Assembly (NCBI GenBank): GCA_020722945.1
Contig: DYJV01000042.1
Location: forward strand, 1-20,009
DNA: 20,009 nucleotides
Direction of reading: 5' to 3'
Source: Candidatus Methylomirabilis sp.
GTDB lineage: Bacteria > DYJV01
A program made the translations under genes and the position numbers. Of this stretch, positions 262 to 17,495 are shown in pieces (the first letter of the stretch is position 1; each line of letters begins with the position of its first letter). Below the pieces are notes generated by a model that made no database searches, was not told where the DNA came from, and saw nothing but the letters and a program-made list of their open reading frames with translations.

Positions 262-717
262 ATGGAAATTTATCTTATCAGACATGCTCATGCTTTGGAG
301 AGAGAGGATTGGCAAGGTGAAGATATTGCAAGACCCCTATCGAAAGAGGGTATAGAGAGAGCTAAAAAAGCGTTCAAAAGATTTGCAAAGATTTTTAAAC
401 ATCCTGAAGTCATAATATCTTCTCAGGCTGTAAGAGCTGTTGAAACAGCAAAAATCTTACAAAAATATATTGACAAAGAGATAATTTTCAACCAAGAGAT
501 CAATCCTGGTTCTGATACCAGCGGCTATCTCAATATCATTGAATCAATAAAAGATAAAAATATCATTGCAATAGTTGGTCATGAGCCTACCATCTCCTCT
601 TTTGTATCAGAATACACCTCTGATAATAAGTTGGATCTTGTATTCAAAAAAGGTTCAATATGCCATTTGTCTGATAGAACCTTGCTCAACTTTATTCAGC
701 AGAAGTGTCTATTATAA
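262..717 (+). CDS. sixA: SixA-type phosphohistidine phosphatase (histidine phosphatase superfamily)
   Basis: A 151-residue cytoplasmic protein of the small branch-2 histidine phosphatase family, close to the usual SixA length. Visible motifs are the N-terminal RHAH (residues 7-10, with His8 as the expected phospho-acceptor), SSQAVRAVETA (residues 53-63, with Arg58 in the phosphate pocket) and GHEP (106-109, with the second catalytic His107). I chose ATG 262 because AGGAGGGG lies just upstream (251-258) and the motif then starts at residue 7. An in-frame ATG at 133 would add 43 unaligned residues. It is the first gene of the polyphosphate operon, and its stop overlaps the next start by one base. 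SixA of E. coli removes phosphate from histidine phosphotransfer proteins. Here the partner could be phosphohistidine on Ppk1, which is inference from context. Confidence 0.88.
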   Translation: MEIYLIRHAHALEREDWQGEDIARPLSKEGIERAKKAFKRFAKIFKHPEVIISSQAVRAVETAKILQKYIDKEIIFNQEINPGSDTSGYLNIIESIKDKNIIAIVGHEPTISSFVSEYTSDNKLDLVFKKGSICHLSDRTLLNFIQQKCLL

Positions 718-2114
718 TGATTCTACTTTATGGCAATGTAAATTTTGATACTAAATTTGATTTTGCAGATTTTAATTTTAAAGAGATATCTTCTACCAAA
801 AGTATCCCTATATCTCTAAAAGATAGTTATGATAATGCTATAGTTAATCAGAGCATTGTGTATCTGTATATTAACAGAAAAAATTTAATTTTTGATTTGT
901 CAGATTTCTCTATAAAAGAGAATATTTCTATTGAAGATTTAATTTATCCAAGAAAATTAATTACTTTTTACAGTAAAAATCTAACCTACCAGCACTACAA
1001 TGTCCTTGATAAAGATGAAAAAGTTACTCTGTCGCTCTTTAAGTTTAAGATTGTTTCTGATAAAAATATCGAAAATTATACATTTATTTTGCTGATACCC
1101 AAAAAGGGATATGAAGAGGAGAGCAAAGCTCTTGCTTCCTTACTTGAATCAAATGGATTTGAAATCCTTGATTCTGTTAGTATAATTAATCTATTCTCAA
1201 AATTAAGAATTATCAATAATTATAAATCAAAAATCATTAACCCTTTTCGTAAAAAAGATAACATATATATATCGTTGCAAAAGATCTTTTTAGGGGAGAT
1301 AGAAATCCTCAAAAGTAATATACATGGTGTTGTCAAGGATATTGATACAGAGTTCCTTCACGATTACAGAGTTTCAATAAGAAGATCAATGTCAATTTTT
1401 AAAGATTTTAAATATCTATTTCCTAAAGAAATTTATTTAGTAAATAAAGCATTTTTATCTAATATTTTTAAATTTACCAATAATCTCAGAGACCTTGATG
1501 TTTTTCTACTTTTTTTGCATAATTACAAAGATGGTGATATCGATATCAAAAGTATCGAGAAAACTGTAAAGGATAAAAGGGGTGAAGCCCTTGGAAATGT
1601 CAAAGTTTTCTTTAAATCTGATGAGCATAAAAAATCACTATCGAAGTGGGATATGTTTGTAAATAAAGGTTTGATTGATATCATGAGAAATGCGGAGAAT
1701 TTTACAGTCAAAAAAAGTGTTAAAAAAGTTCTTAAAAAGAAAATTAAATTTCTAAAAGAGTTAAATATAGATTACGATAATATCTCTAATGAGGAGCTTC
1801 ATAGTATCAGAATATTGTGTAAACATTTCCGTTATATAGCTGAGCATTTTCAATCAATATTCAATGATGAAGCCTCTCATAACTTCATAGAGACAATGAA
1901 AAATTTTCAAGATTATCTTGGTAAAAATCAAGATATATCGTTTCAAATTAATATGTTGAATCTGCTCAAAGAAATGACTCCATCAAATGATATCGAGACC
2001 CTCATACTTAAAAAGATAGTTGAAAGAGATAACAATCTATCACTTTTTTCTGAATATTACCAAAAATTTCAAGAAGAGCTGAAGTGCATCAAGATAAAGG
2101 AGATACTAAAGTAG
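717..2114 (+). CDS. CHAD-domain protein with divergent N-terminal (CYTH-like?) region
   Basis: A 465-residue protein. The C-terminal half (about residues 180-440) is a CHAD domain, recognised by two helical repeats with conserved basic motifs: HDYRVSIRR at 215-223 and LHSIRILCKHFRY at 361-373. CHAD domains bind polyphosphate (known for the family), which fits the operon. The first 170 or so residues occupy the place where many CHAD proteins carry a CYTH triphosphate-tunnel domain. The stretch around KKGYEEESKALASLLESNG resembles the CYTH-CHAD linker, but the usual N-terminal ExExK signature is missing, so any CYTH fold here is probably inactive. ATG 717 overlaps the sixA stop as TAATG; a GTG at 705 is possible but adds only four residues. 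It lies directly before the ParA ATPase and overlaps it by one base. Confidence 0.85.
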   Translation: MILLYGNVNFDTKFDFADFNFKEISSTKSIPISLKDSYDNAIVNQSIVYLYINRKNLIFDLSDFSIKENISIEDLIYPRKLITFYSKNLTYQHYNVLDKDEKVTLSLFKFKIVSDKNIENYTFILLIPKKGYEEESKALASLLESNGFEILDSVSIINLFSKLRIINNYKSKIINPFRKKDNIYISLQKIFLGEIEILKSNIHGVVKDIDTEFLHDYRVSIRRSMSIFKDFKYLFPKEIYLVNKAFLSNIFKFTNNLRDLDVFLLFLHNYKDGDIDIKSIEKTVKDKRGEALGNVKVFFKSDEHKKSLSKWDMFVNKGLIDIMRNAENFTVKKSVKKVLKKKIKFLKELNIDYDNISNEELHSIRILCKHFRYIAEHFQSIFNDEASHNFIETMKNFQDYLGKNQDISFQINMLNLLKEMTPSNDIETLILKKIVERDNNLSLFSEYYQKFQEELKCIKIKEILK

Positions 2115-2854
2115 TGAAGATTGTGACTGTTTATTCATCAAAGGGTGGAGTTGGGAAGACTACTACATCTGTTAATCTTTCATATCTTTTTGCTACGGAC
2201 AAATGCCGGACTTTACTGTGGGATCTTGATCCCCAAGGTTCTGCTTCATTTTATATGAGAGTCAAACCTACCCTTGAAAAAAGTATCGATAAAGTCTTAA
2301 AAAGTTTCAAATCGATTGACAAAAGCATAAAAGAGAGTGATTTTGATAATTTATTCCTACTGCCTTCAGATTCATCTTTGAAAAATATAGATTTTACTAT
2401 TGATGATATGAAAAAGCCCTCCAAAAAACTTGAGAAAACTCTTTTTCAAGGTGAGAATTTTTTTGATCTTATTATAATAGATTCACCTCCCGGATTTTCT
2501 CTGCTCAACGAATTACTCTCAAAAGTCTCTGATATGATATTAGTTCCGGTTATCCCTTCAACATTATCAATAAACAGCCTCAAACTGATAAACGATTTTT
2601 TAAAAGAGTGCAATATTAATATTGAGAAGGTTTATCCTTTCTTTTCAATGGCTGATATTAGGAAAAAGATGCATAAAGATATTATAAATGAGTATATCGA
2701 TGATTTTAAAATAAAGACAATCATTCCGTATAACTCTATTGTTGAGCAGATGGGAATACATAGAACTCCTATGCCATTTTTCTCACCAAATAGTAGTGTC
2801 ACTAAAAAATATATCAATTTAAAAAAAGAGTTGGAAAGGGCTATCAAAATATGA
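2114..2854 (+). CDS. ParA/Soj-type P-loop ATPase
   Basis: A 246-residue ParA/MinD-superfamily ATPase. It has the deviant Walker A KGGVGKTT with the signature lysine at residue 10, Walker A' WDLDPQG at 36-42, and Walker B LIIIDSPPG at 119-127. A basic segment RKKMHK near the C-terminal side of the core resembles the region ParA proteins use for non-specific DNA binding. These ATPases bind nucleoid DNA as ATP dimers and distribute chromosomes, plasmids or large complexes. No parB gene or parS-like site is seen nearby. I placed the start at GTG 2114, overlapping the CHAD stop by one base and preceded by AAGGAG at 2097-2102; an ATG at 2084 would add ten residues before the conserved start. The stop overlaps the ppx start as ATGA. 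Its setting within polyphosphate genes suggests a role with polyphosphate granules (inference). Confidence 0.88.
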   Translation: MKIVTVYSSKGGVGKTTTSVNLSYLFATDKCRTLLWDLDPQGSASFYMRVKPTLEKSIDKVLKSFKSIDKSIKESDFDNLFLLPSDSSLKNIDFTIDDMKKPSKKLEKTLFQGENFFDLIIIDSPPGFSLLNELLSKVSDMILVPVIPSTLSINSLKLINDFLKECNINIEKVYPFFSMADIRKKMHKDIINEYIDDFKIKTIIPYNSIVEQMGIHRTPMPFFSPNSSVTKKYINLKKELERAIKI

Positions 2855-4356
2855 ATATTGCTGTTTTAGATGTTGGGAGTAATTCTGTAAAAGTTGAGAT
2901 ATCCAAAGTAGAAGATGGGCATTTTGAATTAATTGAAGATTTTAAAGAGCTACTTAGGCTGGGAGATGATGTTTTCAGATTTGGGCTGGTAAAGGATGAG
3001 AGTATCCAGAGATTGATAAATGTTATAAAAGAGATAAAAGATGTATGTGATTTTAAAAAAGTAGACAAATTACGTGCAGTAGGGACATCTGCTTTACGTG
3101 ACGCAAGTAACAGTAGAGAGGTCATTGAGAAAATTTATAATGAAACAGGGGTTCTTATAGAGCTTATCTCTGGTGAAAAGGAAGCAGAGCTTGTCTATCT
3201 TGCTGTAACAGCAAATTTTGACATCAACCATTCAAAGACCTTAATTGCAGATATTGGTGGAGGGAGTGTAGAGTTTATAATATCTGATAATAACAAAGTA
3301 GTATTCCAACAATCAACACCTTACGGTTGTAATAGGCTGCTTCATAAATATTTTAATAATGACCCACCTAAAGAGAGTGAAATAGAGTATTTCAAAAACA
3401 GTATGCAAAATATACTTTCTGAACTCCCTCTTGATAGGAGTATTGATAAAGTTATCTCACTTGGTGGCACATTAAGTAATGTTTCATTTGTCTATATGCG
3501 TCAAATCCACTCAACCATTCAGAGAATAGGTTATATAGATAGAAAATTCTTAAAAAGTTTTATAAGGAATATCTCCTCCAAAACTATCAATCAGAGAAAA
3601 ACGATAAAAGGTCTTGATCCGAAAAGAGCTGATCTTGTTCTTCCTGCAACCCTCTTTATTGATACTATTTTGGATATGTGTGGAAAGAGCGGCTTTTATA
3701 CTATGGGTGGAGGTTTGAGAATAGGAGTTTTGATAGATACACTAAATAATATGGGGATACTCTTAAATTTTCAAAATAGTAAAGAGAACTTGAGATATTT
3801 AAGACTCCTTGAAATAGGTAAAAAATTTCAATTTGAAAAGGTTCATGCCATAAATGTAAAAAATTTTGCAGTTCAGATATTCAAAGTATTAAAGGATAAG
3901 TTTAATTTCTCCTATGATCTCCAAAAATATATTGAAGCTGCTTCAATTCTTCACGATATTGGGAATTATATATCTTACTCCCAACACCACAAACATAGTT
4001 ATTATTTGATAAAAAATTCCGATTTTATAGGCTACTCCAATGAAGAAATAGAATTAATTGCAAATATTGCAAGGTATCATAGGAAGAGTCTCCCAAAGAA
4101 TTCTCACGAAAATTATGTTAATTTACCAGAAAATAGTAAGCACATAGTAAGAGAGTTAGCTTCTATTTTAAGGATCTCTGATGCAATAGATAGGTCACAT
4201 TCAGGAAGGATAAAATTTGTAGATTTAAATATTCAGGGTAACAAGCTCTTTCTCAAGATGCTCCCTTGTGACGATATATCTATTGAGAAGAAAGCTATAG
4301 ATAGGAAAAAGGATCTTTTTGAAAAAACATTTAATCTGGAGCTAACTGTTTTATGA
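2851..4356 (+). CDS. ppx: Exopolyphosphatase, Ppx/GppA family with C-terminal HD domain
   Basis: A 501-residue protein, about the usual length of two-domain Ppx/GppA enzymes, which release orthophosphate from polyphosphate ends and/or hydrolyse pppGpp. The N-terminal ASKHA-fold phosphatase shows LDVGSNS (residues 6-12), AVGTSALRDA (76-85), ISGEKEAEL (106-114, with Glu111 at the catalytic position) and the glycine-rich phosphate loop ADIGGGSVE (133-141). Another glycine-rich turn, TMGGG, is at 284-288. The C-terminal HD-like helical domain carries LHDIGNYIS (367-375), HHKHSYYLI (379-387) and SDAIDRSH (443-450). The catalytic motifs look intact, so I expect an active enzyme. Translation starts at ATG 2851 inside the ATGA overlap with the ParA gene and ends in an ATGA overlap with the paralogue downstream. 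A choice between Ppx and GppA activity cannot be made from sequence alone. Confidence 0.9.
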   Translation: MNIAVLDVGSNSVKVEISKVEDGHFELIEDFKELLRLGDDVFRFGLVKDESIQRLINVIKEIKDVCDFKKVDKLRAVGTSALRDASNSREVIEKIYNETGVLIELISGEKEAELVYLAVTANFDINHSKTLIADIGGGSVEFIISDNNKVVFQQSTPYGCNRLLHKYFNNDPPKESEIEYFKNSMQNILSELPLDRSIDKVISLGGTLSNVSFVYMRQIHSTIQRIGYIDRKFLKSFIRNISSKTINQRKTIKGLDPKRADLVLPATLFIDTILDMCGKSGFYTMGGGLRIGVLIDTLNNMGILLNFQNSKENLRYLRLLEIGKKFQFEKVHAINVKNFAVQIFKVLKDKFNFSYDLQKYIEAASILHDIGNYISYSQHHKHSYYLIKNSDFIGYSNEEIELIANIARYHRKSLPKNSHENYVNLPENSKHIVRELASILRISDAIDRSHSGRIKFVDLNIQGNKLFLKMLPCDDISIEKKAIDRKKDLFEKTFNLELTVL

Positions 4357-5861
4357 AAAGCGGGTTATATGCTGTAATAAATATAGGGACAGGTGCATTC
4401 AGACTCCATATAGGTTCATTTGTAAATGGTAAATACAAAGTAATAGAGAGCCTCCTCAAATCTCTCTCACTTGGTAAAGATACATTCTCTAAAGGTTTCA
4501 TAACTCTCCAGAACTCCTTTGAAGCAGTAGAGATTATATCTGCATTTAAAAATAAAATAGAAGAGTATAAAATAAAGAATAGTTATGTTGCTGTTGCTAC
4601 CAGCAGTGTCCGTGAGTCGAATAACAGAAGTTTTTTTATTGATTTTCTAAAAAAGAGAACAGGTATAGATATAATTTTGCTCGATGCTTATCAGGAGATG
4701 TTTATAAGCTATCTTGTTGTAAAGAATGAGATAGCAAATTTTGAAGATTTTGAAAGAGATGGCGTGCTTTTTGCCGTAATATCGAGTGGTAACGTTGCTC
4801 TTACTGCTGTAAAGGGAACATCTATCAAATATTCTGAGTCTCTGCCATTTGGGAGTTTAAGATTAAATGAGATTTTTAAGAATGTTGAGGAGAAGTATAG
4901 AGTTTATGCCTTTAACGAATATATAGAAAATATGCTCTTTGCTCTTAAAGATATTGTAAAAAAAGAGAATATTAAAAATATTGTAATAACAGGTAGCAGT
5001 GCAAATACTATCAGGTCAATATTGGATATTGAAGGTATTAAAGTAAAGTATAACGATATCTTAAATCTATATGAGAATATAAAATTTCTATCAAAGAGTG
5101 ATATTTTGTCAAAATTTAAAATAAGGGAGAATGAGGCTGATATTTTAAAATCGATTGTGTCAATTTATAAAAATATTTTATCAGTATCTAATCGAGAGAT
5201 TTTTTACCTGTCCAAGACATCCTTTCCACACAAATTACTTATGTATTACACAAAAAATCTTAAGATAAAAAATCTTAATAACTACATTGATACAACTGTT
5301 ATGGAAATTGGGGAGAAGTATAAATTTGACAAACAACATTCAGTATTTGTCAATAAATTTGCCCTCAAACTCTTTAAAGATCTTCAAAATATACATCTGC
5401 TCCCTTTTAGGATGAAGCAGATACTATCGATTGCAGCACTGCTTCATGATGTAGGATATTTTATAAATCCTAATAATCATGAAGAGAATTCGTATTATAT
5501 AATCAATTCTCTCCATCTACCAGGTTTTACTTCAAAAGAGATAAAATCAGTAGCACTAATCTCTCTACTCCACAGAGGAAAAGGGAAAGATATATCGCCA
5601 GCTCTTTATGACGGTTTTACAGAGGAGGAGATATTTAATGTTAAGAAGTTAAGTGCGATATTAAAAATAGCGGATGCACTTGATGCAAGCCACAAACAGT
5701 ATATTAAAGAGATAGATGTTGTGAATAATGGTAAAAGTATATTGATATACGCTTATTCAGACAAATTTATATATTTTGAACAAACATCATTTAAAGTAAA
5801 GAGTAAGCTTTTTGAAAAAACATTCGGTATAAAAATCAAAATGGAGCATAAAATTGAGTAA
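4353..5861 (+). CDS. Degenerate Ppx/GppA-HD paralogue (probable pseudo-phosphatase)
   Basis: A 502-residue protein with the same length and domain order as the preceding Ppx, so it looks like an ancient tandem duplicate. The phosphatase half is eroded: the DxGSNS motif reads NIGTGAF (10-16), the phosphate loop DIGGGS is VISSGN (142-147), and the later TMGGG turn is lost. Glu115 still aligns with the catalytic glutamate. By contrast the HD half is well kept, with LLHDVGYFI at 363-371, HEENSYYII at 376-384 and ADALDASH near the end. This suggests that hydrolysis was lost while binding, dimerisation or HD function was retained. It overlaps ppx upstream (ATGA) and ppk downstream by 8 bases. It could regulate Ppx or Ppk, or bind polyphosphate or (p)ppGpp; this is inference. 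Confidence 0.82.
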   Translation: MKSGLYAVINIGTGAFRLHIGSFVNGKYKVIESLLKSLSLGKDTFSKGFITLQNSFEAVEIISAFKNKIEEYKIKNSYVAVATSSVRESNNRSFFIDFLKKRTGIDIILLDAYQEMFISYLVVKNEIANFEDFERDGVLFAVISSGNVALTAVKGTSIKYSESLPFGSLRLNEIFKNVEEKYRVYAFNEYIENMLFALKDIVKKENIKNIVITGSSANTIRSILDIEGIKVKYNDILNLYENIKFLSKSDILSKFKIRENEADILKSIVSIYKNILSVSNREIFYLSKTSFPHKLLMYYTKNLKIKNLNNYIDTTVMEIGEKYKFDKQHSVFVNKFALKLFKDLQNIHLLPFRMKQILSIAALLHDVGYFINPNNHEENSYYIINSLHLPGFTSKEIKSVALISLLHRGKGKDISPALYDGFTEEEIFNVKKLSAILKIADALDASHKQYIKEIDVVNNGKSILIYAYSDKFIYFEQTSFKVKSKLFEKTFGIKIKMEHKIE

Positions 5862-7860
5862 GAGTCCCTATCCGTATATTAATAGAGAGTTGAGCTGGCT
5901 CTTCTTTAATCAGAGAGTCTTGGAAATGTCTAATAATAGAGATATCCCTCTATTAGAGCGTTTGAAGTTTATATCTATATTCTCCAATAATCTTGATGAA
6001 TTTTTTATGGTAAGGGTTGCAGGTGTGATAGATCAGATAGAGCTTGGTTATGAGCAGAAAGACCCTTCTCGTGATACTCCGAAGGAAATATTCAATAAGA
6101 TCAGAGAGATTGTGGAAGACCTTACAATTTTGCAAAACAGATATTTTTTGCAACTTGCAAAAGAGTTAAAGGATGTTGATATAGAGATAAATAAGCTCAA
6201 AGATGCTAATTCGGAGTATCTTGATCTCGTATTTAACAAGGTAATACTACCCTCGATATCCCCTATTACCATAAGTAGCGGGAACCCTTTTCCATTTATT
6301 GCTAATAAAAGGAGTGGAATACTTGTTTGTATGAGAAAAGATAATATCGACTTTTACTCTCTGATAATTATTCCTGACAACCTAAAAAAGCTTTTTGTTA
6401 CTAATTATCAAAATAAAACTTTTGTTTATACTACTGACTTTATAATTTCTCACAAATTAAATGAAATTTATAATAGTTATGATATCAATGATTTTTATAT
6501 TTTTCGTATTACAAGAGATGCTGATCTCTCAATAGAGGAGGAGGGTGCAGAAGATCTTTTGGAGCTTATTGAAACATGGCTCTACAAAAGGAGAAAAGGG
6601 AATGTTGTCAGAGTTCAGATAAATAAAATTCCTACTGATAATATAAAAAACTTTCTTATTAATAATTTTGATATCCCACCAGAATTTATCTATGTAACCT
6701 CTGGAGTTATAGATTACACTGCTTTTTTCAATTTTAAATCTGCAAATGAAGAACTATATTTTAAACCATTTGAGTCCTATATCCCTAATAAAATCCCTAC
6801 AGATGTAAAGATATTTGATTATTTAAAGAAGAATGAGATAATTTTTTATAGACCGTATAACGATTTTTCATTTATCTCAAACCTAATTGATATAGCCGCA
6901 AGTGACCCAGATACAATTTCAATTAAAATGACTATTTACAGAGTTAATAATGATTCAAAAATTATTGATAGTCTTGTTAAAGCGGCTATAAATGGGAAAT
7001 CTGTATTTGTTGTGGTTGAGCTCAAAGCGAGATTTGATGAGCAGGTGAATGTTAATTTTGCCAAGAGACTTGAGGATGCAGGGTGCATCGTATCTTACGG
7101 GATACCCACACTCAAGATACATTCAAAGAATTTGTTAATAATCAGAAATGAAAATGATGAGATAAGGCGTTATGCCCACTGCTCAACCGGTAATTATCAC
7201 GAAAATACTTCCAAAATATATACAGATATAGACTATATAACTTCTAACGAAAAATTCACTTTTGAAGTAAATGGGCTGTTCAACTTTTTAATGGGATATA
7301 CTGATTATGTAAAATGGGAGAAATTATTCCTTGCTCCAAACTATTTGAGAGATAAACTCCTTCAATTAATTGATAATGAGATAAAAAATGCTAAGAAAGG
7401 GGATGAAGCTTATATTATAATAAAAGTTAATTCACTTATTGATAAAGCTCTTATTAAAAAACTTTATGAAGCATCAAAAGAGGGTGTAAAGATTGATCTA
7501 ATTGTTAGGGGTATTTGTGGAATTATGCCTAAAATAAAAGGTTTAAGTGATTCTGTGAGAGTTGTAAGTATAATTGGTAGATTTTTAGAGCATACGAGAA
7601 TATTCTATTTCCATAACAATGGTGATATTCGTCTATTTATAGCTTCAGCAGATTTTATGGAGAGGAATATGGATAGGAGAGTAGAGTATCTTACTGAGAT
7701 AGAGAACAAAACTTTAAAAATGAAACTTCTAAATATACTCAAAAAGCAGCTTTCAGATAATGTTAATTCTTGGGAGTTAATAAAGGATAAATATTATAAG
7801 GTAACTAAAGGAAAGAGTAAAATTGATTCTCAATCTCATTTTATAAATCATAGGTTTTAA
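5854..7860 (+). CDS. ppk1: Polyphosphate kinase 1
   Basis: A 668-residue polyphosphate kinase of the phospholipase-D-like Ppk1 family, close to the 688 residues of the E. coli enzyme. It transfers the ATP gamma-phosphate to growing polyphosphate through a phosphohistidine. The N-terminal signature INRELSWLFFNQRVLE lies at residues 9-24 and FSNNLDEFFMVRVAG at 43-57. The autophosphorylated histidine is most likely His423 in KIHSKNLLI, and the second catalytic histidine is His580 in FLEHTRIFYF. The motif CSTGNYHENT follows the first site. The start is TTG 5854, which places the conserved N-terminus correctly; GGAG at 5843-5846 is seven bases upstream. It overlaps the previous gene by 8 bases and ends the operon. 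The 186 bases to the convergent yibE-like gene hold no convincing terminator. Confidence 0.95.
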   Translation: MSKSPYPYINRELSWLFFNQRVLEMSNNRDIPLLERLKFISIFSNNLDEFFMVRVAGVIDQIELGYEQKDPSRDTPKEIFNKIREIVEDLTILQNRYFLQLAKELKDVDIEINKLKDANSEYLDLVFNKVILPSISPITISSGNPFPFIANKRSGILVCMRKDNIDFYSLIIIPDNLKKLFVTNYQNKTFVYTTDFIISHKLNEIYNSYDINDFYIFRITRDADLSIEEEGAEDLLELIETWLYKRRKGNVVRVQINKIPTDNIKNFLINNFDIPPEFIYVTSGVIDYTAFFNFKSANEELYFKPFESYIPNKIPTDVKIFDYLKKNEIIFYRPYNDFSFISNLIDIAASDPDTISIKMTIYRVNNDSKIIDSLVKAAINGKSVFVVVELKARFDEQVNVNFAKRLEDAGCIVSYGIPTLKIHSKNLLIIRNENDEIRRYAHCSTGNYHENTSKIYTDIDYITSNEKFTFEVNGLFNFLMGYTDYVKWEKLFLAPNYLRDKLLQLIDNEIKNAKKGDEAYIIIKVNSLIDKALIKKLYEASKEGVKIDLIVRGICGIMPKIKGLSDSVRVVSIIGRFLEHTRIFYFHNNGDIRLFIASADFMERNMDRRVEYLTEIENKTLKMKLLNILKKQLSDNVNSWELIKDKYYKVTKGKSKIDSQSHFINHRF

Positions 7861-8046: not shown

Positions 8047-9168
8047 TTAATTTTTTTTATACGAGTATATATATCCCGCTATTATTGCTGTTATTGGTGC
8101 TACTGCTATAAGTCCAAAACTTCCAACTAATGTTTTTAATATTTCTGATGATACCAATGGGAGATTTATAATATTTTGCCAAGGAATCCCCATCCCCATA
8201 AAAAACATCAACATTGTTATATATCCTCCAGAGTAGGCGAAGAGAAGAGTTGTTGTCATTGTTCCCAGAACTGCTCTACCAACAAAGAGTCCCGATTTGA
8301 TTAATTCTTTCATTGTTATTAAGGGATGCTTCTCTTTAATCTCTTTGATTGCTGCTGCAACATCCATAGAGATATCCATTATTGCTCCTGATGAAGCAAT
8401 AAATATGCTTGCAATGAATAATTTAAGTAGATTTATATTTCCAAACCCTGAATATAATAGACTTTCTGAAAAGGGTAAAACAGCACCATGAATTTTGAGA
8501 GGTTTTATAAATATTTCTGTTAAAATGCAGGTCAGTATCAGACCCATAATAGAACCTGAAGCAGCAGAAAAACCAAGCTTTGTAAATCCACCTATGAGAA
8601 AACTTATTACTATGACGAGGGAGGTAATTATCATAAGGGCAATCCACAATGGATCGTAACCTTTTAAAAATAGTGGGATCATTATTTTCCATAATAAGAG
8701 AGCTGAAAATATAAAAGATAAGAGTGCTTTTAATCCTGTTGTTCCTGCTACAAGAATAAGCATAAAGCTAAAAATTCCAAATAGTATAAAGATATATGTC
8801 AATCTGTATACACCCCTTGCAACTCCACTTACAATTTTACCATTTTTATCAGTAGAGAATTCAGCTAAAATAATTTCACCTTTCTGATAAAATTCATCAA
8901 AATCAAGTTTACCGAGAAGCTGATTTGATATTTTAATTTTTTCCCCTTTATATTTCCCCTCAATAATCTCAACTTCGAGTATCTGTGAGCCCATTTTTAT
9001 TATTGTTGTGTGCTCAATTATTGAGTTATCAACTTTTATAACTCTTGCTTTTACTTTATTTGTATTTAAAACTCTTTTATCAAAATCTGTTTCTTTTAAA
9101 AATAGTATTGCTGATAATATTGTTAGAAAAGCTATAAACAGAAGTTCTCCTCTAAATTTATTTTTCAT
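8047..9168 (-). CDS. YibE/F-family integral membrane protein
   Basis: A 373-residue membrane protein of the YibE/F family, whose molecular function is not established. One N-terminal transmembrane segment (about residues 8-24) is followed by a roughly 90-residue soluble domain with beta-rich character, then about seven hydrophobic helices. Family-like features are the run IASSGAIMDISMDVAAAI, a glycine-rich GSIMGL segment and FAYSGGYITML. ATG 9168 has an AGAGGA ribosome site just upstream. The gene lies about 40 bases downstream of the alkaline-phosphatase terminator hairpin on the same strand. It must therefore be transcribed by read-through or from a promoter overlapping that hairpin. Confidence 0.85.
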   Translation of the reverse strand: MKNKFRGELLFIAFLTILSAILFLKETDFDKRVLNTNKVKARVIKVDNSIIEHTTIIKMGSQILEVEIIEGKYKGEKIKISNQLLGKLDFDEFYQKGEIILAEFSTDKNGKIVSGVARGVYRLTYIFILFGIFSFMLILVAGTTGLKALLSFIFSALLLWKIMIPLFLKGYDPLWIALMIITSLVIVISFLIGGFTKLGFSAASGSIMGLILTCILTEIFIKPLKIHGAVLPFSESLLYSGFGNINLLKLFIASIFIASSGAIMDISMDVAAAIKEIKEKHPLITMKELIKSGLFVGRAVLGTMTTTLLFAYSGGYITMLMFFMGMGIPWQNIINLPLVSSEILKTLVGSFGLIAVAPITAIIAGYIYSYKKN

Positions 9169-9207
9169 AATATCCTCTTTTAAATTTTAAACTTTTGGAA
9201 TAAAGAA

Positions 9208-9233
9208 ATTCCCCTCTTTTTTAAGAGGGGAAT
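9208..9233 (-). terminator. Strong rho-independent terminator after alkaline phosphatase
   Basis: ATTCCCCTCTT (9208-9218) and AAGAGGGGAAT (9223-9233) form a perfect 11-base-pair stem with a four-base loop. Read on the minus strand the stem is followed by TTCTTTATT, so it serves the alkaline phosphatase gene that ends at 9272. On the plus strand no T-run follows. Confidence 0.85.
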
Positions 9234-9271
9234 CTAAAAGGAATGATTATTAAGTAGATTTTGTTGAGAAA

Positions 9272-10819
9272 TTAATTTATTAAACCACAATTTGTGAGAG
9301 AACATATCTTTTTGGGCACATCTACGTTGCTCATCTGACCTATAAATTTTTCTGCTCCATTACCTATTGCGTATACAGGAACCGGTAACCCTGTATGGGA
9401 GTAAGAGGTAAAGGTTACTCCTGACAACTCAGCTAAAGTGTGGGTGCACTGAACAGTAAAAGCATCGTATCCACCATAAAGGAGATAATCTTCTTCAGAA
9501 CCTATTATTGCTTTTCCAGCAAGTGTTCTATCATAAGCATCTTCTAACTGTGATTTCTGAAAATCTGTAAGTTGAGAGTAATCAATATTAAAGCTATATT
9601 TAATAAAAGTTTTTATAACATCATCTAAATCTTGAACAACTGGATAATTTAATTTGTTGTTTTTATAATCTGAAACAATCTTAGAAAATTCAATGTAAGA
9701 CATTTTTTGATCTGCAAAATTTGAGAAGTTTGTAGTATATTTTGTTCCTGCAAATCCGATAGTCATACCACCACATTCATGATCACCTGTAACAATTATC
9801 AGTGTATCATTTGGATTTTGGTTGTAAAAATCAACAGCAACTTTAATTGCATTATCAAAATCTATAACCTCTTTTATTGAAGAAGCAGCATCATTTGCAT
9901 GGTTTGCCCAGTCTATTTTCCCACTTTCAACCATCATAAAAAATCCACTTCCCTTTGTATCATTAAGGAGTTCGATACCTTTTTTTGTGTATTCTGCAAG
10001 TGTGATAAATCGCTCTTTATCATTACCGTAATATGCCTGATCAATAGCATAATAAAGTGCAGCATCTTTATCAAGACCTGTAGATGGATTTACTGCCACA
10101 ACTCTCTGATTATCAGCATATTTAAGAGCATCAAAATCGCTTCTTGTATTTACATATTTCATACCGCTCTCTTTTATTATATCTACAACATTTTTTTGAT
10201 CTTTATTTGGTCCTGTAGGTTTTTTAAAACCACCTCCAGCGAAGTAATCAAAACCGCTTGTTGGTATTTGAAGAGCGATCTCGTAGTAGTCATTTCTTGA
10301 AGCTTGATGAGCATAAAAAACCGCTGGTGTTGCATGATCGATAGATACGCTGCTTACAATACCTACTTTTCTACCCATTTTTTTGAAAGCTTCAGCTATT
10401 GTAGGATATTTTATTGTTGCATTAGGATCCATAGAAATTACACCAGATTTTGTTTTATATCCTGTTGCCAATGCAGTTCCTGTATCAGCAGAATCAGGAA
10501 CAAATGAATTTGTTCCAAAAGTTGTTGCAATCCCTAAGTAGGGGAAAGATGTAAAACCAATTTTTGGCATTGATTTAAGAATATCGTATGAATAGTCGTT
10601 ATTTGGAAAAGGGTAACAGTTTTTAGAACTTGCTTTCCCATTTTCACATGCATTCTGAAGTGAAGTAAGGTAATATTCAGCAGAATTTACCTGAGGTATA
10701 GACATCCCATCACCGATAAAAAGGAATACATATTTGGGACCACTTGCCTCAGATATAGATAGTAAAGAAAATACAAAAAAGATAATTGAAAAGATGTAAC
10801 AGGTAAAATTTTTTTTCAT
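9272..10819 (-). CDS. phoA: Alkaline phosphatase (PhoA family), exported
   Basis: A 515-residue alkaline phosphatase that would release orthophosphate from phosphomonoesters outside the cytoplasm. An N-terminal signal peptide is clear (MKK, hydrophobic core to about residue 20, likely cleavage after SEA at 25). Catalytic and metal-binding motifs are present: IGDGMS with Asp37, PDSADTGTALATGYKT with nucleophile Ser110, DHATPA at 161-166, ESGKIDWANH with Glu298, Asp303 and His307, TGDHECGG with Asp346-His347, and SHTGLPVPVYAIG with His475. ATG 10819 has AAGGAGAG upstream. Cysteines in the N- and C-terminal regions could form disulfides in the periplasm. Expression is probably linked to phosphate supply as in other PhoA enzymes, but I cannot identify a clear Pho box upstream. 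Confidence 0.93.
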   Translation of the reverse strand: MKKNFTCYIFSIIFFVFSLLSISEASGPKYVFLFIGDGMSIPQVNSAEYYLTSLQNACENGKASSKNCYPFPNNDYSYDILKSMPKIGFTSFPYLGIATTFGTNSFVPDSADTGTALATGYKTKSGVISMDPNATIKYPTIAEAFKKMGRKVGIVSSVSIDHATPAVFYAHQASRNDYYEIALQIPTSGFDYFAGGGFKKPTGPNKDQKNVVDIIKESGMKYVNTRSDFDALKYADNQRVVAVNPSTGLDKDAALYYAIDQAYYGNDKERFITLAEYTKKGIELLNDTKGSGFFMMVESGKIDWANHANDAASSIKEVIDFDNAIKVAVDFYNQNPNDTLIIVTGDHECGGMTIGFAGTKYTTNFSNFADQKMSYIEFSKIVSDYKNNKLNYPVVQDLDDVIKTFIKYSFNIDYSQLTDFQKSQLEDAYDRTLAGKAIIGSEEDYLLYGGYDAFTVQCTHTLAELSGVTFTSYSHTGLPVPVYAIGNGAEKFIGQMSNVDVPKKICSLTNCGLIN

Positions 10820-12444: not shown

Positions 12445-13995
12445 TTAAACTGAGTATCTCTTTTTTAATGGGACTTTTGTAATTTTACCAGAGCCTGTTT
12501 TGGGTAGAGCATCTATAAATTCAACCGATTTAGGTGCTTTGTATGATGCTATCCTACTTTTTGCAAAATTTATTATCTCATCTTCAGATGCACTCATTCC
12601 ATCTTTTAGAACTACAAAAGCTTTGACTATTTCTCCCCATTTTGGATCTGGAACCCCGACAACTGCAACTTCAAGAACCTTTGGATGTTCGTAAATTAGA
12701 TACTCTACCTCTGTTGAATAAACATTTTCACCACCTGTGATTATGATGTCTTTCTTTCTATCAACAATATTTATATACCCCTCTTTATCTATTGTTGCAA
12801 GGTCACCTGTTTTCAGCCACCCATCAGGGGTAAAGGCTTTCTCTGTCTCTTCTGGCATCTCCCAATAACCGGGAGTTACAATATCACCCTTAACGATTAC
12901 TTCACCCACCTCTTTATCATTGTGCACTACTTCTGTGAGATCATCTTTAACAACTTTAAGTGATACTCCAAGAAATTCACGACCTGTTTTTGCTTTAAAT
13001 CTAAATTTATCTTCACTATTAAGATTAAGGAGATTTTTCTTTAAAATAGATACTGTAAGGTATGGGCTTGTTTCGGTCATACCGTATGTTTGGATGTAGT
13101 CTGATTTAAATTTATCCATTATCTTTTTTACAAGATCTGGTGCAATAGGAGCTCCTCCACTCAAAATAGCTCTGATACTTGAAAGATCATAATTCTCTAT
13201 ATTTTTGAAATTTATGAGCATATTTAGCATAGTGGGGACCATATTGCTGATTGTTACTCTCTCTTTGGCGATAAGTTCAAAAACAACATCTTCTTTAAAA
13301 TCGTTGACCATTGTGTGTTTTGCTCCAACAGCAGTAAATGCAAATGTTGCCCACGCATCAGCCAGATGAAACATAGGAGCAGCGTGAAGCCAATTATCGT
13401 TGTCTCTAATATTAAATTCAGCAATTGCACAGATAGAGTGAGTTGTAACATTTTTGTGTGTAAGCATTACCCCTTTAGGTTTACCAGTAGTTCCACTTGT
13501 AAAGTAGAGATGGGCAATATGGTCATCTGTAAATTCAACACTTTTAAACTCCAAAGGGTCTTGATTATCTTGAATATTCTCAATATAAACCCCGCTCCAA
13601 CCTTCAGGTATAGTCTCACCTGTCCAGATTATCTTATCTATAGAGTTTCTGATTGGTTCAAGCTGTTTTAGGTATCGCTGATTTGTAATGAGTAACTTTG
13701 AATGGGAACTTTTAAGTATATACTCTATCTCATTTGAAGATAGCCTTGTATTTATTGAATTTAAGATTATCCCGCATAAAGATGCTGCAAAGTAAGCTTC
13801 ATAATAGTAGTGACAGTTAAAATGTATAACAGATAAAACATCACCCTTTTTTAACCCCTGTTTCTGAAAGTATGATGAAAGTTTCAAAACTCTTTTTAAA
13901 ATATCTTTATATCTGTATCGAATAGAGCCGCACACTATAGCTTCATAATCAGGGTAAAGCTTTTCAGCTTTTATCAGAAAATCATGAATCAACAT
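12445..13995 (-). CDS. AMP-forming acyl-CoA ligase (fatty-acid-CoA ligase-like)
   Basis: A 516-residue adenylate-forming enzyme that would activate a carboxylic acid to its CoA thioester using ATP. Motifs are the P-loop YFTSGTTGKPKG (164-175), YGMTETS (304-310), the hinge GWLKTGDLATIDKEGYINIVDRKKD (within 392-416), the pantetheine-tunnel segment GGENVYSTEVE (421-431), and PKTGSGKITK with catalytic Lys504. The overall pattern fits medium/long-chain fatty-acyl-CoA ligases, but the substrate cannot be read from sequence. ATG 13993-13995 has GGAGG upstream. The start overlaps the end of the TRAP permease by 14 bases, so the two are almost certainly co-transcribed and translationally coupled. The transported molecule is then probably the acid activated here (inference). 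Confidence 0.9.
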   Translation of the reverse strand: MLIHDFLIKAEKLYPDYEAIVCGSIRYRYKDILKRVLKLSSYFQKQGLKKGDVLSVIHFNCHYYYEAYFAASLCGIILNSINTRLSSNEIEYILKSSHSKLLITNQRYLKQLEPIRNSIDKIIWTGETIPEGWSGVYIENIQDNQDPLEFKSVEFTDDHIAHLYFTSGTTGKPKGVMLTHKNVTTHSICAIAEFNIRDNDNWLHAAPMFHLADAWATFAFTAVGAKHTMVNDFKEDVVFELIAKERVTISNMVPTMLNMLINFKNIENYDLSSIRAILSGGAPIAPDLVKKIMDKFKSDYIQTYGMTETSPYLTVSILKKNLLNLNSEDKFRFKAKTGREFLGVSLKVVKDDLTEVVHNDKEVGEVIVKGDIVTPGYWEMPEETEKAFTPDGWLKTGDLATIDKEGYINIVDRKKDIIITGGENVYSTEVEYLIYEHPKVLEVAVVGVPDPKWGEIVKAFVVLKDGMSASEDEIINFAKSRIASYKAPKSVEFIDALPKTGSGKITKVPLKKRYSV

Positions 13996-16090
13996 TAGAT
14001 AAATCCTCCACTTTTCTATTTTGAATTATCTTTTTTACAATAATAAATATTCCCGGCAGCAGTAAAATTAGGTTAAGATATAAAGATGGATAGAACATAG
14101 CTACCCCTAAAGTTGTCATAATTATCCTCTCTGTTTTGGTTAAATTTACACGGAAAAACCCTGTTGTCCCAATTATAAGAAATAGCGTTGCGACTCCTGT
14201 GAGTATAAATTTGATGGCAATAGTAAAGACTCCCTGAAGATTGCTGTTTTGCTCTAAAAATGGGATAATCAGAAGAGCAGTTCCGAAGTAGGAGCATATA
14301 AATGATAAGCCAATAAGATATTTTGGCAGTGCAACAATTGCAGAGTAGATGCCTGTCTTAATAGGATTTGTCCCAAAAACAGAGGATGATGCATAGACAG
14401 ACAAGCCAACAGGTGGAGTAACCTCTGACAAAACAGCATAGTAGAATAGGAACATATGTGTTGAAAGGAGTGCTGCATTTTCTGGGATACCTGCTGCTAC
14501 TGCAAGTTTCAATATTGCTGGTGCAGTAAGAGCTGATGTCAAGACATAGGTTGCAATAGGTGGAATACCCATTCCGAGGATAATACTGAATATTGCTGTA
14601 AAGATTAGTGCAAAAAATAGGTTTCCTTTTGAGAGTTCTGAAAGTAAAACTGAAAATTTGGCTGCAACTCCGGAAGTAACCATCATTGTCATAACAATAT
14701 TTGCAGCACCCACAGCGACTCCTATATGGATAAGAGATTTAAAGCCATTTGCAAAACCTAAAGTTACTTTGGAATAGTGTGGTCTCATAGATGGTGCGAT
14801 GTATGCCAAGATAATAAAGAGAAAAGTTGATAAAACCACAGATATATTGACAGCAAAACCTAAATATATCATTGATAATATTAGAATTATAGGGAGAAAT
14901 ACAAATGAATGTTTTAAAAGATACTCTTTATCTACATTTATGGGGAGTTCTATTGTTTTTATCTTATCTTTTCTCACATAAAATTCGTTGTATAGCCAAA
15001 TTCCAAACAGATATATTAGCATTGGTCCTACTGCCATAACTATTATATGTGTATATGGAATGGCAAGAAGTTCAACCATCAAGAATGATATAGAACCCAT
15101 GATTGGTGGTGTTATGTAGGCTATAGAGCCAACAGTAGCAACAATTCCTGATGCTATATAAATGTTGTATTTTGCTCTCTGATAAAGATCTCTTGTAATT
15201 GTTGCAACAAATTGGGTGTCAGCAGCACCAGAGCCTGAAAATAAACCCATAAAAACTGCAAGGATACAAGACACTCTACCTGGTGAAGCGGGATGTTTGC
15301 CAACGAGAGCAAGTGCTATGTTGGATATGATTTTGCCAAACCCAAGTTCTGTAACTACTCCGCCAAGAATTGTAAAATAAACGAGATATTTAAGGGATAC
15401 ACCTGTTATTACGCCAAATAGACCTGCTTCTGTCTCGCAGTAAAGTTTCCCAAGTATCATATCAAAGCTGAAACCTGGTCCAGAAAATTGACCAGGGATT
15501 AGATTGCCATAAATATTATAAATTATAAATAAAAGTATAAGTATGGGTAAAGCTGCACCAATGACCCTGTATGTTATTGTGATAAGGAGATAAATCTCCA
15601 AAAAAGACATTACAAGATCAAATGGTTCGGGGAGTATTGCCCTATATATAAGATTTTCGTAGTTGATAATTAGATAAAATGTAGGGAGTAATATTAAAAC
15701 TGCGTTTAAAATATTCAGAAAATTTAATTTTTTGGTAAATATAGCAGATGAGATGGTTACTGTCCATATAATTCCAGCATATATTTTGTAAATTAATGGG
15801 AGATTGATCTCCCAGAAAGAGTATAAAGGGATAAATGACATAATTAGAAATATTAGTGTAAAAAAATTAAATTTGCTGCTTTCCGATTTATCAAAAATGA
15901 TAAGGAAGCCAGCAAAAATGAGTAAAGATATATGAACAGTACGCTTGACTTGGGTTAGGCTAAGAATAGAGATATGGTAATTTGACAAAGGTGTAAATGG
16001 ATGAATAACAAGATAAATATGATAGAGAGCAGAGGTCAAAAGAGTCCAAAATATTATTTTTTTGATAAAAGATTTATAATCTTGGGCCAT
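13982..16090 (-). CDS. TRAP transporter fused permease (DctQ-DctM fusion), TAXI type
   Basis: A 702-residue, highly hydrophobic inner-membrane protein with about 16-18 predicted helices. The N-terminal third has spaced helices like the small DctQ subunit. The rest resembles the large DctM subunit, with VFMGLFSGSGAADTQFVATI, YITPPIMGSISFLMVE, GMGIPPIATYVLTSAL and EVTPPVGLSVYASSS as family-like segments. It would carry an organic acid into the cell with a sodium or proton gradient, using the TAXI binding protein encoded upstream. ATG 16088-16090 has GGAGG at a normal spacing. The start lies 37 bases inside the end of the preceding open frame, and the end overlaps the acyl-CoA ligase start. Confidence 0.92.
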   Translation of the reverse strand: MAQDYKSFIKKIIFWTLLTSALYHIYLVIHPFTPLSNYHISILSLTQVKRTVHISLLIFAGFLIIFDKSESSKFNFFTLIFLIMSFIPLYSFWEINLPLIYKIYAGIIWTVTISSAIFTKKLNFLNILNAVLILLPTFYLIINYENLIYRAILPEPFDLVMSFLEIYLLITITYRVIGAALPILILLFIIYNIYGNLIPGQFSGPGFSFDMILGKLYCETEAGLFGVITGVSLKYLVYFTILGGVVTELGFGKIISNIALALVGKHPASPGRVSCILAVFMGLFSGSGAADTQFVATITRDLYQRAKYNIYIASGIVATVGSIAYITPPIMGSISFLMVELLAIPYTHIIVMAVGPMLIYLFGIWLYNEFYVRKDKIKTIELPINVDKEYLLKHSFVFLPIILILSMIYLGFAVNISVVLSTFLFIILAYIAPSMRPHYSKVTLGFANGFKSLIHIGVAVGAANIVMTMMVTSGVAAKFSVLLSELSKGNLFFALIFTAIFSIILGMGIPPIATYVLTSALTAPAILKLAVAAGIPENAALLSTHMFLFYYAVLSEVTPPVGLSVYASSSVFGTNPIKTGIYSAIVALPKYLIGLSFICSYFGTALLIIPFLEQNSNLQGVFTIAIKFILTGVATLFLIIGTTGFFRVNLTKTERIIMTTLGVAMFYPSLYLNLILLLPGIFIIVKKIIQNRKVEDLSNVDS

Positions 16091-16497
16091 ACTACCTCCA
16101 TATTTATACAGTCGTTTGATATCTCGATCTTGCTATCTCTAATAGATAGTGAGATCCCAATCATTGAACAGTAAGAGAGTTTATCTTTTCTCTCTTTTGA
16201 TAGCAAATTATTAATATCGTAGCTTCCAGATGTGTAGTAATTGAGAGTTTTAATATCTGTCCCCATATAAAAATTGGAAAAGTTAAAAGGTGTGTTAAAC
16301 CTTATCTCAACTTTTGAGCCAGTTACAGAGTTATTAAAACAGACTTTTATTTTATCCCATGGAAGTAAAAAATAAATTTTGGATAAAGAAGAAGTATTTA
16401 CAATTACTACTCTGACAAATAAGAGCAGTATAAGAGCAAAAATAAAAAAGAGGGCAGTAAATGCCCTCGTATATGATATTTTGTTAAATCTGATTAC
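16054..16497 (-). CDS. DUF1850-like open frame without a canonical start codon
   Basis: A continuous minus-strand frame of 147 codons runs from the end of the TAXI gene into the TRAP permease. It encodes a hydrophobic N-terminal helix (ALFFIFALILLLFVRVVIV), then a soluble part with VCFNNSVTGSKVEIRF, which resembles the YTHSV..PVEE region of DUF1850, and ends VVWPKIINLLSKK. DUF1850 proteins commonly lie between TAXI and fused TRAP genes, which supports the call. However, the only in-frame ATG is at 16264-16266, after the conserved part, and no GTG or TTG occurs earlier. Non-standard candidates are ATC at 16492-16494, which overlaps the TAXI stop, and ATT or CTG after the hairpin at 16450-16468. 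It is either a gene with an unusual start or one that has lost its start. The usual HSV histidine is Asn here. Confidence 0.5.
   Translation of the reverse strand, partial: VIRFNKISYTRAFTALFFIFALILLLFVRVVIVNTSSLSKIYFLLPWDKIKVCFNNSVTGSKVEIRFNTPFNFSNFYMGTDIKTLNYYTSGSYDINNLLSKERKDKLSYCSMIGISLSIRDSKIEISNDCINMEVVWPKIINLLSKK
16450..16468 (-). terminator. Terminator or attenuator hairpin after the TAXI gene
   Basis: GAGGGCA and TGCCCTC form a perfect seven-base-pair stem with a five-base loop. On the minus strand it is followed directly by TTTTTTATTTTT, a classical rho-independent terminator. It lies 25 bases after the TAXI stop and upstream of the permease. Partial termination here would give more binding protein than permease, as is common in such operons. 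Confidence 0.85.
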
Positions 16498-17495
16498 TTA
16501 ATAGCTCCAATCTCTTTAAAATACTTTATTGCACCTGGATGAAAAGGTATTGCTGTTTTCCCTATAAATTTTGCAGTGCTCTCAACATTTGTATCTTTTG
16601 ATGCCTTAACAGCAGAGTGAAGCTGATCTAAATTTGAAAAAACAGCTTTTACCATATTATAAGCAACATCTTCAGGGAGTGATTTGGGAGCAAGAATTTG
16701 GTTCCAGAAAGCAAGGGTCTCTGTATCGTTGCTTGTGCCATAAACATCTTTTTTGATCACTCCTGTGTCAGCAAGACCAGGAAATTTCTCGTTAAAGTAT
16801 TGGACAACCTTACTATCTTTTGGAATTGGAACAAATGCTACATTTTGACCTTTTCGTTTAAGGGTGGTTGTCAGCTCAACAATAGAGCCTGTAGGTAAGC
16901 CTCCTGACCAAAAATATGCATCTATTGTCCCATTTGAAAGACCCTCCTCAGACTCTTTTGCTCCAAGTTTCTCCCATTTTTTGAATGAGTCTGTTTTTAC
17001 TCCTGCTGATTCAAGTATCAGAAGTGCTGTATACTCTGTCCCTGATCCGGGAGCTCCTGTTGATACTCTTTTACCTGAAAGATCTGCAAGAGATTTGATC
17101 CCTGATTTGTCTGTGGTTACAATTTGGAGGAAATTTGGATACATCATCCATAAAATTGTAGTTGGTGCAGGGTTATCTTTAAACTTAGGGTGTGTCCCTT
17201 TAAATGTAACAAATGCTGAATCTGGAAGCGATGTTGCACAGAAGAATGTCCCTTTTGCAGGGTCTGATTTGTCCCTGATGAGAAGGTTATTATCGACTGA
17301 AGCTGCTGTCTGGATAGCAGTTGTCTTATAACCGGTGGTTTTGGTAATTATGTCAGATACCTGAGTCCCATAATAAAAATATACTCCACCTAATCCCCCT
17401 GTTGCAAAAAAGATTTTTTCATCCTTTGCATTTAGTAGAGTAGAGAAAAGGAAAATTAGGATAAATGTAAACAGAGTAATAAAAAATCTTTTCAT
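16494..17495 (-). CDS. TAXI-family TRAP transporter solute-binding protein
   Basis: A 333-residue periplasmic binding protein. The signal peptide is clear (MKRFF start, hydrophobic to about residue 20, likely cleavage after Ala23 in LLNA). Family-like features are FFATGGLGGVYFYYG near the mature N-terminus, GKRVSTGAPGSGTEYTA in the middle, GTIDAYFWSGGLPTGSI, and the C-terminal IPFHPGAIKYFKEIG, which is typical of TAXI proteins. It would deliver its ligand to the fused permease encoded downstream. ATG 17493-17495 is preceded by AAGGAGG. A TTGACA-containing promoter lies about 70 bases upstream, and a terminator-like hairpin follows the gene. The ligand cannot be deduced. Confidence 0.92.
   Translation of the reverse strand: MKRFFITLFTFILIFLFSTLLNAKDEKIFFATGGLGGVYFYYGTQVSDIITKTTGYKTTAIQTAASVDNNLLIRDKSDPAKGTFFCATSLPDSAFVTFKGTHPKFKDNPAPTTILWMMYPNFLQIVTTDKSGIKSLADLSGKRVSTGAPGSGTEYTALLILESAGVKTDSFKKWEKLGAKESEEGLSNGTIDAYFWSGGLPTGSIVELTTTLKRKGQNVAFVPIPKDSKVVQYFNEKFPGLADTGVIKKDVYGTSNDTETLAFWNQILAPKSLPEDVAYNMVKAVFSNLDQLHSAVKASKDTNVESTAKFIGKTAIPFHPGAIKYFKEIGAIK

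Follow-up and report, generated by a model that had tools for sequence, protein, structure and literature searches.

Several described systems bear on how bacteria arrange their polyphosphate (polyP) granules. In Pseudomonas aeruginosa, the even spacing of granules along the nucleoid is affected by AlgP (PMC9239181). CHAD proteins have been located on granules in living cells (Tumlirsch and Jendrossek 2017, as cited in PMC9239181). According to a 2025 review, it remains to be seen whether granule localisation needs energy; the only factor named there is AlgP, and no ATPase is mentioned for polyP granules (PMC13052382). In Acidithiobacillus, an adjacency of ppk, parA, and a CHAD gene has been drawn, with the ParA interpreted as serving chromosome or plasmid partition; the authors discussed cyclic AMP and copper, and no positioning role (PMC6416229, PMC10892726). 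The placement and inheritance of polyP granules is the question addressed by the gene pair described here, which encodes a ParA-type ATPase and a CHAD protein. It lies on contig DYJV01000042.1 of a 2.5 Mb draft genome of Candidatus Methylomirabilis sp.; the window that we analyzed is this entire contig of 20,009 bases. The pair sits within six plus-strand genes (262-7860) in the order sixA, CHAD, ParA-type ATPase, ppx, degenerate ppx, and ppk1. We report a conserved gene pair, a distinct ATPase clade, and the absence of DNA-partition parts, and we consider it somewhat probable that the ATPase and CHAD form a two-part ParA-type cargo system that positions polyP granules, with CHAD as the cargo adaptor.

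Genomes encoding the same clade of ATPases were gathered by unbiased searches and came to a merged total of 52, drawn from at least five phyla. (An initial scan of genome contigs had returned a single relative, and it was the later whole-genome searches that carried the analysis.) A CHAD gene lies directly upstream of the ATPase gene, on the same strand, in 46 of the 52, compared to none of the approximately 47 Soj-type loci examined likewise. This linkage is far above chance, and it would provide the ATPase with a cognate partner encoded nearby, as in ParA/MinD systems. The clade is present in 14 of 82 genomes from the phylum of genome G046 (all 14 with CHAD directly upstream), in 10 of 50 Deferribacterota, in 4 of 84 genomes from the phylum of G397, and in 20 of 396 from the large phylum of G165, whose members group with Aestuariispira and which is therefore probably Pseudomonadota.

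The association also holds when the search is turned around. A sample of 386 genomes, mostly from different families, contains nine clade members; in a reciprocal search of the same 386 genomes with the Chlorobium CHAD protein, eight gave matches at E 1e-40 or better, and seven of these eight belong to the nine ATPase-bearing genomes (Fisher p 1e-12, without correction for phylogeny). Within Deferribacterota, all 10 ATPase-bearing genomes have a CHAD gene, vs. 23 of all 50 (Fisher p 1e-4, again without phylogenetic correction). The ATPase and CHAD are jointly present or jointly absent in three genera of this phylum (g390, g391, and g392), and in one of its genomes (G472) both are present but apart. 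We set aside a mirror-tree correlation between the two proteins (r 0.82), since common descent by itself could produce it.

Wider gene context was inspected at 29 loci. Within 5 kb, and always on the same strand, CHAD was found at 27 of them, ppk1 at 17, sixA at 13, and ppx at 11, with at least one of ppk1 and ppx at 18. Of 49 clade genomes, 40 encode a Ppk1 that scores above its cut-off. The full order sixA-CHAD-ParA-ppx-pseudo-ppx-ppk1 recurs in seven Deferribacterota genomes at approximately 30-55% protein identity, two further partial copies occur in the same phylum, and at eight Deferribacterota loci this gene group begins with a sixA orthologue. One of the seven is Denitrovibrio acetiphilus (G482), which places the complete operon in a species that has been cultured. 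The clade ATPase and CHAD are also found in Aestuariispira insulae, and plasmids of Paracoccus aestuarii and P. marcusii carry the arrangement CHAD-ParA-CYTH-NUDIX. The adjacency of the ATPase gene with CHAD and polyP genes, which an initial annotation had described from the window alone, is thus conserved in several phyla.

The frequency of ppk1, the commonest neighbour after CHAD (17 of 29), could also mean that the ATPase positions a Ppk1/CHAD complex or determines where granules nucleate, for instance at the pole or nucleoid, and does not move finished granules; the adaptor would again be CHAD. Granules of several species do occur at a defined site (PMC13052382). However, ppk1 is non-adjacent in approximately 40% of the inspected loci, which makes a Ppk1-specific role less parsimonious than a polymer-specific one, and we regard placement of the enzyme or nucleation site as quite unlikely.

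By its deviant Walker A, Walker A', and Walker B motifs, the ATPase is a member of the ParA/MinD superfamily. Its Walker A (KGGVGKTT) is complete and contains the signature lysine as well as that of the P-loop, and among 15 clade members KGGVGKT, DxDPQ, and the Walker B D-x-P-P are invariant or nearly so. In a maximum-likelihood tree of 66 rows, the ATPase and its relatives form a clade with support of 99/99 on a branch of 0.97, separate from Soj, McdA, and MinD-like sequences. The MinD-like and McdA references (the latter a single partial sequence) are long-branched, which leaves their exact position in the tree unsure, yet they fall outside the ATPase clade. A profile built from the window ATPase and its relatives gave scores of 275-417 bits for the main clade and at most 147 for Soj-type proteins, with 258 for a sister gene and 175-192 for sphingomonad relatives; one clade member, whose sequence is cut by a contig end, scored 229. 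The C-terminal clade motif DVEKMGIxRxP stands where Soj has NVRLxEAPSxGK, and the C-terminal 100 residues are basic, with a mean charge of +4.9 in the clade vs. +3.5 in Soj-like proteins.

If the ATPase were an ordinary partition protein of a plasmid or chromosome, present in a polyP operon by chance, it would have the same ParA-type fold and motifs, and databases do give such genes a chromosome-partitioning label (PMC6416229). This reading is contradicted by the separate clade and by the lack of ParB and parS in the window, where a profile search of the proteins returned no ParB-like protein and no parS-like site was found, even when 3 mismatches were allowed. Exact parS sites were present in 11 fetched loci, all of them Soj-type and among them the parAB locus on contig 87 of the source genome, but in none of the CHAD-ParA loci examined. 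The source genome encodes two further ParAs, each adjoining a ParB (contigs C87 and C179), and most relatives of the window ATPase keep an adjacent CHAD gene instead. Chance residence of a partition gene is therefore very improbable, and identity of the ATPase with chromosomal Soj specifically was rejected on the tree, on the ParB genes beside the other ParAs, and on the distribution of parS. The loci on C87 and C179 are both full parAB loci; with an estimated contamination of 5.8%, one of them may come from a plasmid or a different organism.

The initial annotation had reported the complete Walker A and the lack of parB or a parS-like site nearby, and both observations stand. Among the outcomes that it had named as counting against the idea was that the ATPase groups with chromosomal Soj and has a parB elsewhere. 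The ATPase does not group with Soj, and the parB genes of the genome adjoin the two other ParAs, so the idea is not refuted by them.

Two loci outside the common arrangement are of separate interest. On plasmid pMAQU02 of Marinobacter nauticus (L033:6004-6750), a sister of the clade ATPase lies near phbB, a gene of polyhydroxybutyrate synthesis, with no CHAD; from this neighbourhood, a link between the wider clade and another storage polymer is possible. In G384 (L093:6826-7785, on a contig of 2,472,645 bases), a clade ATPase follows and overlaps a gene for a 319-amino-acid protein without a Pfam match, which stands in the place of CHAD and is a candidate alternative partner.

The CHAD protein opens with an N-terminal domain of approximately 200 amino acids (717-1320), continues with a long CHAD domain, and ends in a helical extension at the C-terminus. 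Its closest solved structures are those of Chlorobium CHAD (3e0s, 6qv7, and 6qva; E ~1e-103), which span the CHAD domain and the C-terminal extension. The Chlorobium protein has been crystallised with polyP, and mutation of H253, R256, R260, R296, R418, and Y419 (plus K441) lowers its polyP binding (PMC6537752). The equivalent residues in the window protein (H215, R218, R222, R258, R372, Y373, and K395) are identical in all 29 linked CHADs that were aligned, and by this conservation the linked CHADs are predicted to share the polyP-binding surface of the known structure. CHAD fits as an adaptor because it is the sole near-constant partner of the ATPase and keeps polyP-binding residues validated by mutagenesis.

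Several further readings of the CHAD protein were considered and rejected. The N-terminal domain contains a YDTFDWRL motif that is conserved in relatives and resembles CYTH by eye only; it has no match in Pfam, PDB sequences, or CYTH profiles. The proposal that it is a dead CYTH domain was dropped on the Pfam result, a profile comparison with CYTH proteins of neighbouring loci, and PDB sequences, with small alignments limiting the sensitivity. Nor is the domain specific to ATPase-linked proteins. An open frame of 602 amino acids was examined as a possible CHAD-ATPase fusion, which would have proved contact, but CHAD lies in another frame.

Our preferred reading of the pair is as follows. The ATP-bound ATPase would dimerise and bind a matrix, most likely the nucleoid, while CHAD would sit on polyP chains or granules. 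CHAD would then recruit the ATPase and trigger its release, and the resulting gradient could space the granules and share them between daughter cells, as McdA and McdB do for carboxysomes.

A number of findings weigh against this positioning system. The partners of ParA/MinD ATPases are said to share a positively charged, disordered N-terminus (PMC10241942). Such a basic tail, which might have served as the ParA activator, is absent from CHAD: the first 30 residues have a mean net charge of -0.8 (17 linked CHADs). The domain at the N-terminus also occurs in CHADs without an ATPase, and by itself is therefore no sign of ATPase binding. On the ATPase side, the alignment shows that the clade does not keep the second arginine of the Soj NVR motif, which we take to be a DNA-binding residue, and nucleoid binding by the ATPase is correspondingly less certain. 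A structural model of CHAD made from a two-row alignment had a mean predicted local distance difference test score (pLDDT) of 42 and was unusable. Finally, the linkage has exceptions, as six of the 52 clade genomes lack an adjacent CHAD, nine of 49 have no clear Ppk1 (several of these drafts are incomplete), and there is no CHAD beside the more remote sister genes of Marinobacter, sphingomonads, Pontibacter, and Halomonas. The initial proposal that the ATPase spaces granules through a CHAD adaptor thus came through the comparisons of clade, parB and parS, and linkage without refutation, and the adaptor keeps its polyP-binding residues, but the expected basic tail is missing. The underlying observation is confirmed, and much more strongly than one window could have shown; the positioning of granules is plausible as its explanation and is the best supported.

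The coordinates of the operon are given in Table 1. Profile matches place and name all six genes as initially annotated, although the sixA model match, at 69.1 bits, is slightly below its cut-off of 74.5. Overlap was likewise claimed for every junction, and it is found at all five and persists with refined starts. The likely CHAD start is the ATG at 717, in a TAATG overlap with the sixA stop; that of the ATPase is the GTG at 2114, in a TAGTG overlap and preceded by a Shine-Dalgarno sequence AAGGAGA at approximately 2097-2103; and that of ppk1 is the TTG at 5854, from direct reading of the start region. In this organism, the genes of the pair lie in a single overlapping operon with ppk1 and ppx, for synthesis and breakdown of the polymer, so the carrier is probably produced along with its cargo.

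Table 1. Genes of the polyphosphate operon in the 20,009-base window, with the matches on which their names are based.
Feature	Position	Strand	Evidence
sixA-type phosphohistidine phosphatase (histidine phosphatase superfamily)	262..717	+	His_Phos_1 E 2.9e-11; sixA model E 3.7e-19
CHAD protein, 465 amino acids, isoelectric point ~9.0	717..2114 (frame 705/717-2114)	+	PF05235 E 8.6e-30, above cut-off
ParA-type ATPase, 246 amino acids	2114..2854	+	AAA_31 E 3.2e-34; Walker A complete
ppx, exopolyphosphatase (Ppx/GppA family), C-terminal HD-like domain	2851..4356	+	Ppx-GppA E 3.4e-56
Pseudo-exopolyphosphatase (degenerate ppx), HD-like domain retained	4353..5861	+	Ppx-GppA E 2.1e-14
ppk1, polyphosphate kinase, 668 amino acids	5854..7860	+	TIGR03705 E 3.8e-220

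Elsewhere in the window, a YibE/F-like membrane protein and an alkaline phosphatase are encoded convergently to the operon (8047-10819), so that a further phosphate gene flanks it. The minus-strand genes at 12445-17495 encode an acyl-CoA synthetase, a DctM-type TRAP transporter, and a TAXI-like solute receptor (NMT1_3), and appear ordinary.

The second new feature of the operon, besides the ATPase-CHAD pair, is a conserved pseudo-exopolyphosphatase next to an intact one. The intact ppx carries the catalytic motifs DVGSN, GEKEA, and DIGGGSxE. In its degenerate neighbour all phosphate-binding motifs are replaced (DxGSN by NIGASA, GEKEA by PSDEI, and DIGGGSxE by NISSGNV), and the C-terminal HD-like domain is kept in both paralogues. 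The altered motifs NIGASAFRM, PSDEIYIKY, NISSGNV, and GSSxN are common to the window gene and eight orthologues. Because relatives conserve the same changes, the gene encodes a maintained pseudoenzyme and is not decaying, which refines its initial description as degenerate: the loss of phosphate-binding motifs is correct, but the altered motifs are being kept. Its role is probably regulatory or polyP-binding.

The presence in the operon of a conserved pseudo-Ppx and a SixA phosphatase, both of which appear regulatory, bears on the main rival to positioning, in which the ATPase is itself a regulator. Acting through CHAD, it would be an ATP-sensing switch that sets Ppk1 and Ppx activity, or access to polyP chains, by energy state. 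Regulatory members of the ParA-like family are known, and FleN/FlhG regulates rather than positions. The overlap with the genes for Ppk1 and Ppx, enzymes that consume or yield ATP-equivalents, is tight, and the CHAD partners are without the usual ParA-activating tail. However, the most constant partner of the ATPase is the polyP-binding CHAD and not the enzymes, and many CHAD-ParA loci have no ppk or ppx nearby. Furthermore, a sister genus in Deferribacterota (G328, G487, and G488; loci L132, L133, and L135) has sixA-CHAD-ppx, in which CHAD is followed by ppx and the intervening ATPase is missing. The enzymes thus do not depend on the ATPase, which is accessory to polyP metabolism rather than required. 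Such accessory status would be expected of a positioning part, and regulation by an ATP switch seems to us unlikely, if still worth keeping in view.

The initial annotation had also held that such a system was undescribed. Full-text searches of open-access literature (bioRxiv preprints fall outside this scope) returned no description of a ParA system dedicated to polyP, and the main multi-ParA survey does not mention polyphosphate; the claim is therefore nearly right. The gene adjacency as such, however, had already been drawn for Acidithiobacillus, with no positioning role attached. We give an even chance to the broader proposal of a widespread, ATP-driven placement system dedicated to polyP granules, in which a polymer-binding CHAD is the cargo adaptor. 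If true, this ParA-type system would be the first to recognise its cargo by way of an inorganic polymer, and not DNA or a protein shell, and the list of ParA cargos, now DNA and protein assemblies, would come to include a polymer. The occurrence of the ATPase-CHAD pair in at least five phyla provides a named candidate gene for granule placement, with cultured hosts, and the sister genus that has the gene group without the ATPase provides a natural contrast. The pair may also mark polyP-storing organisms, which is relevant to phosphorus cycling and wastewater treatment.

Compared to known systems, the window ATPase shares its core with Soj/ParA of ParABS, and its closest solved sequences are of this kind (8ray, 6iub, and 1wcv); it differs in its identity of approximately 30%, its separate clade, its lack of ParB or parS, and its replaced C-terminal motif. 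The Acidithiobacillus group has the same three kinds of genes adjoining, in one genus only and compared by gene order alone. AlgP, in contrast, is a histone-like DNA-binding protein and not an ATPase. The linked CHAD belongs to the same long CHAD subfamily as Chlorobium CtCHAD and the CHAD phosins, with the key polyP contacts conserved, although the solved Chlorobium protein corresponds to the CHAD part only; unlike YgiF-type CYTH/TTM-CHAD fusions, it has no CYTH match in its N-terminus. The closest parallel in organisation is McdA/McdB, where a ParA-type ATPase without ParB or parS is likewise encoded with cargo genes and places a large non-DNA cargo through an adaptor. The window ATPase did not join the McdA reference in the tree (a weak test, as that sequence is partial and on a long branch), and by alignment it keeps the signature lysine, whereas the solved McdA 6non has SGGQGKTT. 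There is no McdB-like gene at the locus; the partner position is occupied by CHAD, so that here the adaptor would be a CHAD protein and the cargo a polymer.

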